Below, piece by piece: positions 880 to 2,582 of a DNA stretch of 37,951 nt. The position numbers and the translations under genes were made by a program. The notes under the pieces are model-generated. The model had not been told where the DNA came from and did no database searches. It was given only the letters and a program-made list of their open reading frames with translations. Position 1 is the stretch's first letter. Every line of letters begins with the position of its first letter. This DNA comes from Ignavibacteria bacterium (GTDB lineage: Bacteria; Bacteroidota; Ignavibacteria; Kapaibacteriales; UBA2268), in assembly GCA_012522895.1 (NCBI GenBank), contig JAAYJM010000048.1, positions 1 to 37,951 on the forward strand, written 5' to 3'.

Positions 880-1131
880 CTATCTAAATTTTTTCAAAAA
901 TTGCTCTGAAACGTTTAGCTCGCGGGCAATTTGCTTAAATGTTTTTTCTGGAAAAAGCTTGATATACTTTTTGATTAAGCTGTCGAAACGAGTGATTTTT
1001 GGAATGTAAAAAGTTAAGCCGCCGTAATGACGAAGTATTTCTTTTAGCACGTCAAGCCCAATCATCTCTTCGAGGATTTGCATATCGGGAGTTAAGTCAT
1101 CAAGCGTCATCAATTCATAAGCATCTCTCAT
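880..1131 (-). CDS. Mor-like transcription activator (phage Mu Mor/C family)
   Basis: This is an 83-residue protein. An acidic, helical N-terminal part (about 12-36) precedes the hallmark GGLTFYIPK at residues 37-45, which corresponds to the conserved Gly-Gly, hydrophobic, Tyr-Ile-Pro strand of the Mor dimerisation region. A C-terminal helix-turn-helix follows at about 64-83 (a TFKQIARELNVSEQFLKKF-type segment). Phage Mu Mor and C switch on middle and late phage genes. This protein is shorter than Mu Mor because the N-terminal extension is missing. It overlaps the gene before it by 4 nt (ATGA at 1128-1131), so the two form a coupled operon, ended by the terminator at 827-866. Its targets are not visible in the window. 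The Mor assignment rests on motif recognition and is fairly firm; an activating function here is inference. Confidence 0.75.
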   Translation of the reverse strand: MRDAYELMTLDDLTPDMQILEEMIGLDVLKEILRHYGGLTFYIPKITRFDSLIKKYIKLFPEKTFKQIARELNVSEQFLKKFR

Positions 1132-1355
1132 ACCAGCCCCGATAGTTCGTCAAAAGAAAAATCTTCTAAGATAAGGTCTAAATTCGAGGATATTTCTTGC
1201 GGATTGATGCAGTTGTTAATGTAATCGCAGTTGAGGAATTTCAAATCCATCAGTATTTCTGCTGGCAAAATTTCTAATTCATCAATTTTCTTGAAAAATA
1301 GCTCGAAAATATTGATAAATTTGCCGATTTCTGAGATTTTTAGTTCTTTCTTCAT
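1128..1355 (-). CDS. small protein of unknown function, first gene of the leftward operon
   Basis: I do not recognise this protein (75 residues). It is rich in Leu, Ile and Glu and predicted mostly helical, with no membrane segment or metal motif. A start ten codons further upstream is possible. I prefer the ATG at 1353-1355 because GGAG lies seven bases upstream of it, a good ribosome-binding site in a window where such sites are scarce. Its stop overlaps the start of the Mor-like gene. It is the first gene downstream of the leftward promoter and operators. Its place corresponds to the early lytic or regulatory genes of temperate phages, so a small regulator or anti-repressor is possible. 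This is only positional inference. Confidence 0.6.
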   Translation of the reverse strand: MKKELKISEIGKFINIFELFFKKIDELEILPAEILMDLKFLNCDYINNCINPQEISSNLDLILEDFSFDELSGLV

Positions 1356-1461: not shown

Positions 1462-1477
1462 TTTACTAAAACGTAAA
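1462..1477 (+). promoter_or_regulatory. operator-like site O3
   Basis: This is an exact copy of the O1 sequence, ending three bases before the ATG of the HTH gene at 1481. A bound protein would cover the start of the rightward transcript or the initiation region of the repressor-like gene, which suggests autoregulation. No clear rightward TAnnTTTG box was found, so the rightward promoter is not placed. Confidence 0.75.
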
Positions 1478-1480
1478 AAA

Positions 1481-1921
1481 ATGCAAATTCCTGATCGCAT
1501 AAAATATTTTGCAAAAAGCTGCTACGGAAATTTTAAAGTTTTTTGCAAGGAGTTGGACATTAGTCAATCGCATTTAAGTCATTATTTGCAAGGCAGAAGA
1601 ATGCCCTCCTTGGAGATGCTACAAAAATTCAAAGAAGCGGGTATGAGTATTGACTGGCTTATTGACGGGGAGGGCGATATGTTTGCTCAAAATGAAAAAG
1701 GAGCAATGCTAAAAAATGAGCAAGTAGACAAAAAACCAACTTCTCAAAAAGCCGTCCCACTGCACCTAAACGATATAAAAGACGAAATACTGGATTTGAA
1801 GCTAAAAATATCGGAGCAGGACGATAAATTTCAAATGCTTGAAGAGTTGAAAGATTTACTTGAAGAAAAGCTTTCTCCACGCCTTGCCGCTGCTGGGCGA
1901 AAGAAAAAAGCAGATAGATAA
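1481..1921 (+). CDS. HTH repressor-like protein (phage CI N-terminal type), no protease domain
   Basis: This protein has 146 residues. At about residues 14-62 it has a helix-turn-helix of the phage CI/XRE type: a KVFCKELDISQSHLSHYLQG segment, then MPSLEMLQKFKEAGMSIDWLIDGEGDMF. The SxxWLxxGEGxMF ending is typical of Bacteroidota phage-type repressors. A Lys/Gln-rich linker leads to a heptad-like helix at about 96-138, probably a coiled coil for dimerisation. There is no S24 domain, which full-length CI or LexA would carry; that domain is encoded by the next gene. The ATG at 1481 follows operator-like site O3 by three bases, leaving almost no leader. It probably represses the divergent leftward operon and itself through the three sites. 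A normal end in a long coiled coil argues against a simple frameshift break. Confidence 0.8.
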   Translation: MQIPDRIKYFAKSCYGNFKVFCKELDISQSHLSHYLQGRRMPSLEMLQKFKEAGMSIDWLIDGEGDMFAQNEKGAMLKNEQVDKKPTSQKAVPLHLNDIKDEILDLKLKISEQDDKFQMLEELKDLLEEKLSPRLAAAGRKKKADR

Positions 1922-1937
1922 ACAAAATACAAGCAAA

Positions 1938-2582
1938 ATGAAAAAAGAGGAATACATAAAAATCTTGGGCGAAATATCGGATTTTGAGCTATATTCTCTT
2001 GCAAAGAGCAAGCTGATAAGCAATTTGCAAACTAATAATTTTAGCGATTGGCGTCTCAAATGTATTTTCGAGGAATGCTCTTTGAGGAATAGCAAAATAT
2101 ATAACGATGCCCTTTGCGATGCCATTTATTCCATTCATTCACAGGATTTTCAAAATAAATTCTCAAGAAACGTAAATAGAATTGACCATTTGACAATTTC
2201 AGAGCTAAAAATCACTTTAAATGAGCTTTTAGAAAGGAATAATAAAATGACTAAAAAAATTGGCTTTGAGGATTTGATGAGCTCTTTAACGGGTATATTG
2301 AGGGATAAAGATGTTTCAATTTACCGAATAGCGGGCAATAGTATGGAAGAAGCTGGAATATTCGACAGCGCGATTATTATAGTAAAAGAGCGGACAATCC
2401 CAAAAGATGGAGAAATCGTGCTTGTCAAACACAATGGAAGAATGCTTGTAAAAATACTTGAAATTAAAGAAGATAGCTTAGTTTTAAAATCGAAAAATAG
2501 AAAATACCCAGACATTCTTCTTGACCAATATTCAGACTGCGAATTTCTTGGGAAAGTAAAATTGATTGTAAATGCGACCTAA
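1938..2582 (+). CDS. stand-alone S24 (LexA/UmuD-type) protein with a novel N-terminal region
   Basis: This protein has 214 residues. Residues 1-104 are helical and unrecognised; I see no helix-turn-helix. Residues about 126-210 form an S24 domain. Ser135 lies in GNSMEEAGI and Lys172 in MLVKIL, a spacing of 37 residues, as in LexA (119/156) and UmuD (60/97). The dyad is therefore intact. The LexA-family cleavage bond (Ala-Gly or Cys-Gly about 35 residues before Ser) is not seen near residues 98-104. An in-frame TTG at 1860 would overlap the HTH gene. I chose the ATG at 1938 because it gives a normal 16-nt gap. Gene order suggests it works with the HTH protein as the second half of a split repressor, or senses DNA damage; both are inference. 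An unrelated UmuD-like role is less likely because no umuC follows. Confidence 0.78.
   Translation: MKKEEYIKILGEISDFELYSLAKSKLISNLQTNNFSDWRLKCIFEECSLRNSKIYNDALCDAIYSIHSQDFQNKFSRNVNRIDHLTISELKITLNELLERNNKMTKKIGFEDLMSSLTGILRDKDVSIYRIAGNSMEEAGIFDSAIIIVKERTIPKDGEIVLVKHNGRMLVKILEIKEDSLVLKSKNRKYPDILLDQYSDCEFLGKVKLIVNAT

Follow-up and report, generated by a model that had tools for sequence, protein, structure and literature searches.

S24 repressors are textbook self-cleaving proteins. The LexA of Bacteroidetes has been described as a single-chain protein (PMC8565304), intermolecular cleavage is established for UmuD-like proteins (McDonald et al. 1998, as cited in PMC3564112), and the repressor DdrO is cleaved in its C-terminal region (PMC10904395). 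Among the open-access papers searched, none describes a conserved split S24 repressor in which the HTH protein carries the cleavage segment. Here we describe a conserved cassette in which the HTH and S24 domains are encoded by separate genes, a short motif of one protein and the catalytic dyad of the other are conserved, and cis-cleavage sites are absent in a complementary manner. From sequence comparison, and with a probability of roughly 0.6, we read this cassette as a conserved split LexA/CI-type repressor, in which the S24 subunit would cut the tail of the HTH subunit in trans on a signal.

Separate genes for the DNA-binding and peptidase domains

The window (the whole stretch of DNA analysed, 37,951 nucleotides) is an entire contig of a 2.66-Mb draft genome. 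Its HTH gene (1481-1921, forward strand) encodes an XRE/CI-type DNA-binding protein of 146 amino acids without an S24 domain, which is assigned to the CI-type HTH proteins by a match to Pfam HTH_3 above the cut-off (4.6e-06, 27 bits against 23); the match to Phage_CI_repr lies below it (8.9e-04, 20 bits against 22). After 16 bases, and in a different frame, follows the S24 partner gene (1938-2582, forward strand; 214 amino acids; Pfam S24, 6.8e-20), whose full-length homologs occur in the family. The S24 domain (PF00717) covers residues 121-207 only, at 71.3 bits against a cut-off of 23.3, and together with the Ser-Lys dyad it identifies the protein as an S24 peptidase. Ser135 (codon 2340-2342, forward strand) is at least 90% conserved and Lys172 (codon 2451-2453, forward strand) is invariant in alignments A1 and A5. 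The first-pass annotation had placed the two domains on separate proteins and the dyad residues 37 positions apart, and both claims are confirmed.

A profile of the HTH partners detects orthologues in 49 of 54 family genomes, with one strong match per genome. Among 341 genomes of the class, all 30 matches fall inside the same family and none outside it. The cassette is thus a core single-copy system confined, within the class, to one family of uncultured Bacteroidota. The S24 gene adjoins the HTH gene in 38 of the 49 genomes, lies elsewhere in nine (contig ends may account for two of these) and is absent in two; solitary S24 genes exist, with the HTH orthologue elsewhere in those genomes. In the five family genomes lacking an HTH match, the S24 matches are all short, UmuD-sized or weak. 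The S24 partner has full-length homologs, helical N-terminal part included, across genera of the family at 25-33% identity. Most loci share one cassette layout, in which the genes for a small acidic protein and a Mor-like activator are divergent from those for the HTH and S24 proteins. Since the surrounding genes differ between genera, the cassette is conserved but its position is not. Scans for close relatives with the window S24 protein over genome and viral contigs, and a tblastn search of phages, found nothing. Two fecal phage matches (H1 and H4) were rejected as members of this system, being UmuD-like proteins with canonical RAGFP/SAGFP sites and adjacent UmuC-like genes.

This distribution bears on the explanation that the first-pass annotation had itself raised against a split repressor, namely a fused protein in relatives or an indel joining the two frames. 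A single-chain CI/LexA repressor broken by a frameshift, an assembly error or a sequencing error has next to no probability. It is refuted because the two genes are conserved as separate units, next to each other at 38 loci and apart in nine genomes, and a family-specific helical domain sits ahead of the S24 domain. We found no point in favour of a broken chain. At three loci (L083, 2949-4001; L084, 3587-4639; L088, 2890-3918), the S24 start codon directly follows the HTH stop codon (TAG), in frame.

The N-terminal part of the S24 partner has no match in Pfam, NCBIfam or PHROG. A four-helix domain is predicted over residues 1-70 (1938-2147, forward strand; helices 3-12, 15-32, 38-50 and 52-70), and the AlphaFold2 model (pLDDT 84) shows residues 3-70 as helices, followed by a flexible stretch and the S24 fold. 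In Foldseek, this model matches the C-terminal domains of LexA and UmuD, and nothing among the matches listed corresponds to the helical domain. The region had been called unfamiliar at first pass, and residues 1-120 indeed match nothing known. The protein falls short of the LexA model TIGR00498 (42.8 bits against a cut-off of 111) and of the UmuD model PRK10276 (57 bits against 110). LexA carries its DNA-binding and S24 domains on one chain, whereas here they are on separate genes at 38 loci, and the window S24 protein lacks the A-G bond 34-35 residues before Ser at which LexA is cut in cis. Compared with UmuD, it lacks a site of its own and has a 120-residue N-terminal region in place of a short arm. 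As an S24 protein, the partner is also distinct from the zinc metalloproteases of the ImmA/IrrE type.

No S24 partner has A-G or C-G at positions -36 to -33 from Ser, in agreement with the earlier observation that no such bond lies at the LexA/UmuD position. The sole A-G of the window S24 protein lies at -3 from Ser, as part of the G-x-S-M motif. About half of the partners have IGAAKxNP at the LexA cleavage position, which could suggest that the S24 protein cleaves itself in cis at GAAK, 35-38 residues before Ser, and that the HTH gene is a mere neighbour. We consider this very improbable: Lys or Arg occupies the P1' position where Gly is expected, the segment is absent from many partners, including that of the window (RNNKM), and one partner has no residues there at all. 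Self-cleavage at GAAK would also leave unexplained the A-G motif of the HTH proteins, described below, and its loss together with the S24 gene.

The window genome encodes two S24 proteins, the cassette partner and a UmuD with a canonical SAGFP site and the dyad. Since no single-chain S24 repressor is detectable in this genome with PF00717, the cassette may be its sole S24-type damage-responsive repressor.

A conserved Ala-Gly segment near the HTH C-terminus

The window HTH protein carries A136-A137-A138-G139 (1886-1897, forward strand), a candidate LexA-type scissile bond A138|G139 located 8 residues from the C-terminus, which the first-pass annotation had missed. Nearly all HTH partners end in [VA]-A-A|G-[KDR]-[IL], 4-26 residues from the C-terminus (26 in the partner at L055), with a consensus over clusters of [IV]-[LYI]-[KTS]-[AV]-A-A|G-[DKRN]-[ILM]. 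We take this segment to resemble the E. coli LexA cleavage segment R-V-A-A|G-E-P. The motif is kept in 43 of 47 HTH partners. Of 36 clusters, 33 have A-G in their tails, where shuffling gives 6.8 on average and at most 15 in 2000 rounds; the stricter pattern [AV][ASV]AG occurs in 29 of these clusters against 0.25 expected by shuffling, and the AAAG of the window tail has a chance of 0.001 when that tail is shuffled. No positions of the motif are more constant than the P1 Ala and P1' Gly. Their codons vary synonymously, indicating that the constraint acts on the protein. The motif is also present where the S24 gene is located elsewhere, and a ribosome-binding artefact was rejected on these two grounds. 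In one HTH partner (L098, 1-921, reverse strand), KVAAGAP precedes a long tail that is rich in Ala, Lys and Pro, contains RRGRP repeats and runs off the contig end.

The A-A-G tail could conceivably play a structural part in the HTH protein, for example as a helix cap or a dimer contact, and have nothing to do with S24. AlphaFold2 places the motif in a helix of low confidence in one partner, but the rest of the tail is poorly conserved and the motif has the form of a short linear LexA-like segment. It is also absent from other HTH proteins: among the non-core HTH proteins of the same genomes, only 1 of 19 has such a terminus (ALAG), and it lies beside S24 genes. At two control loci, an HTH protein without the motif accompanies an S24 protein with its own SAG site (L210) or with Lys replaced by Arg (L196). 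The motif is moreover lost along with the S24 partner, and we regard a purely structural role as improbable.

The two proteins complement each other in what they lack. The S24 partners have Ser and Lys without A-G or C-G at the right distance, and the HTH proteins have the A-G. The three genomes of genus g4 illustrate this from opposite sides. In G003, an HTH protein ending in AAAGRKDA is followed by an S24 protein of only 88 amino acids, which cannot self-cleave because its first residue lies 11 positions ahead of the catalytic Ser. In G027 and G064, the S24 partner is absent and the HTH tail has no A-G; since this co-loss may represent one or two losses, it counts as a single natural experiment and carries no statistic. 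Against cleavage, the HTH protein at L068 has AAAK beside an S24 protein with an intact dyad. Given an A-G segment at the HTH C-terminus, trans-cleavage by the intact dyad is the simplest reading.

The main rival is docking without cutting, in which the HTH tail is tethered in the S24 groove, the S24 protein serves as dimerisation subunit, co-repressor or sensor, and the motif is conserved for binding rather than hydrolysis. One clade, genus g24 (L080, L089, L090 and L092; support 96/98), has lost the catalytic Ser once, with Glu in its place (GDEM or GSEL), and its HTH tails keep AAAG, AVAG or similar; a prophage relative likewise has a Ser-less S24 protein of 214 amino acids, and the authors of the phage ACA1 study proposed non-covalent association of a separate S24 protein with the repressor (PMC10612066). 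Because the g24 clade lost Ser yet kept the motif, docking alone retains some probability, though we judge it unlikely. Outside the Ser-less clade, nearly every lineage retains Ser and Lys, the dyad persists even in the 88-residue S24 protein stripped of every other domain, and the P1 Ala and P1' Gly, needed for hydrolysis, are the positions that vary least. A single-chain AlphaFold2 model of the L056 pair, read through with the stop codon taken as Gly purely as a modelling device, is of no use for or against docking: docking was not seen in it and the motif region has pLDDT <55.

A similar division occurs in the tandem UmuD-like genes that many family members carry (L018, 872-1788; L020, 1492-2335; L169, 461-1379; L172, 555-1408; L173-L188). 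Across the 23 loci examined, the first gene keeps V[ASP]AGxP and has lost Ser in 15 of 23, and the second has the dyad in all 22 examined and lacks A-G at that position in 17 of 22. Since these genes also divide site and active site between two proteins, trans-cleavage is a plausible habit of the lineage. At somewhat short of even odds, we tentatively propose a vertically maintained switch in which the S24 protein acts as a dedicated trans protease of a separate HTH repressor, cutting its C-terminal LexA-type site and so exposing a degron, with the tandem UmuD proteins of the lineage likewise divided.

The divergent operon and a proposed mechanism

Divergently from the HTH gene lies a conserved partner, a Mor-like transcription activator of 83 amino acids (880-1131, reverse strand), which matches Pfam Mor slightly below the cut-off, at 5.6e-05 (23.5 bits against 24.9), and phrog_836, a late transcriptional activator, at 2.2e-06, and is 37-58% identical to its counterparts in nine other cassettes. 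The small acidic protein gene (1128-1355, reverse strand), probably starting at the ATG at 1355, overlaps the Mor-like gene by ATGA; its family is very divergent, and profile A4 finds a match at the same place (3e-20). Between the two operons, the operator-like site TTTACTAAAACGTAAA, a dyad of the form TTTAC-N6-GTAAA, occurs at 1407-1422 and at 1462-1477 (both forward strand), the latter 3 bases before the HTH start codon. These are the only two exact copies in the window genome. In the cassettes of relatives, the divergent promoter contains a dyad of the TATGTAA-N3-TTACATA type or a longer one. Searches with these operator patterns found no wider SOS-like regulon, exact sites being confined to the cassette apart from stray matches; four such matches occur in one genome without the cassette, and in two genomes a second site lies inside an LptF/G-like coding sequence. 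As these operator-like sites have no convincing second target, the switch appears to be local, acting through the Mor-like activator.

Three features of the flanking DNA may be recorded here. DUF433 and DUF5615 genes with a 4-base overlap, likely a toxin-antitoxin-type pair, adjoin the cassette (195-748). The cassette directly precedes rimM-trmD, at a position where one would often expect rpsP, and a hairpin-like inverted repeat, GTCAAGCATCTTTGCTTGAC, is found between the S24 gene and rimM (2650-2671).

We infer the following sequence of events. The HTH protein would repress both itself and the Mor-like activator operon by binding the dyad operators of its own divergent promoter. The S24 partner, whose peptidase domain is preceded by the family-specific helical domain, would contact the HTH protein and contribute the Ser-Lys active site. 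In response to a signal, which here as with other S24 proteins is probably activated RecA, the partner would cut the HTH tail in trans at A138|G139, freeing a short peptide and leaving an HTH C-terminus that ends in -AA. Because the cut removes only 4-26 residues, inactivation needs a further step: the -AA end could weaken dimers or be recognised as a degron of the ClpX type; ClpX is known to act on exposed LexA fragments (PMC10584840). The cut repressor may then fail through lost contacts or degradation, allowing the Mor-like activator to be expressed. The pair may plausibly respond to damage. Three further observations count against this reading of the cassette: solitary S24 genes exist, the window HTH domain is diverged from the core family, and the operator searches found no wider SOS-like regulon. 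Of the first-pass proposal of a two-protein repressor/protease pair without classic self-cleavage, the conserved pair and the lack of cis cleavage stand; control without any cleavage is the part from which our reading departs.

Probable phage ancestry and relation to known systems

A prophage-like region in G032 holds related parts: an HTH protein ending in ALAGQKIK, a UmuD-like S24 protein with its own C-G site, a 214-residue homolog of the S24 partner without the catalytic Ser, replication genes and, at a distance of about 11 kb, a Mor-like gene. The cassette thus resembles a phage switch that has been domesticated, and the split repressor is probably phage-derived. The HTH domain of the window is 36% identical over 74 residues to the prophage HTH but only 20% to the core family, whereas the S24 and Mor-like genes of the window are clearly orthologous. 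Prophage-like versions are located at L166 (4242-5745 and 16505-16804), L107 and L215, with the Mor-like gene after the replication genes.

Several described systems share some of these features. (i) Single-chain repressors. LexA, including the non-canonical CI-like LexA of Bacteroidetes (PMC8565304), shares the Ser-Lys dyad, the A-G consensus and the CI-type HTH. It is one chain cleaved in cis, whereas here two genes place site and dyad on different proteins, an extra helical domain is present and no wider SOS-like regulon was found. If our reading is correct, a family-wide division of enzyme and substrate would show how single-chain LexA/CI proteins could arise or be dismantled. The Francisella repressor FddR (PMC13148647), also of phage type and domesticated, controls itself and genes transcribed divergently from it, but it is described as a single S24-family repressor that does its own DNA binding. 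(ii) Separate S24 proteins. UmuD shares the S24 fold without an HTH, and trans cleavage is known for that family (cited in PMC3564112). It has its own site and serves polymerase V, whereas the partner described here lacks a site and is encoded with a repressor; the cassette would, on our reading, offer a natural system of two components in which to measure trans-cleavage by S24 and activation by RecA. In Pseudoalteromonas phage ACA1/C5a, the 'SOS sensing protease' gp4 is also an S24 protein encoded apart from the immunity repressor, and its authors proposed SOS inducibility (PMC10612066). That protein comprises an S24 domain of only ~121 amino acids, without a helical domain, and does not adjoin the repressor; it is a single speculative case for which no conserved cut site was reported. 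(iii) Repressors with a separate protease. ImmA-ImmR and PprI(IrrE)-DdrO likewise combine an HTH repressor, cleaved in its C-terminal region (DdrO: PMC10904395), with a separate protease, but their proteases are metalloproteases and the enzyme here is an S24 serine-lysine peptidase. Trans-cleavage in the present cassette would thus parallel these pairs with another class of protease.
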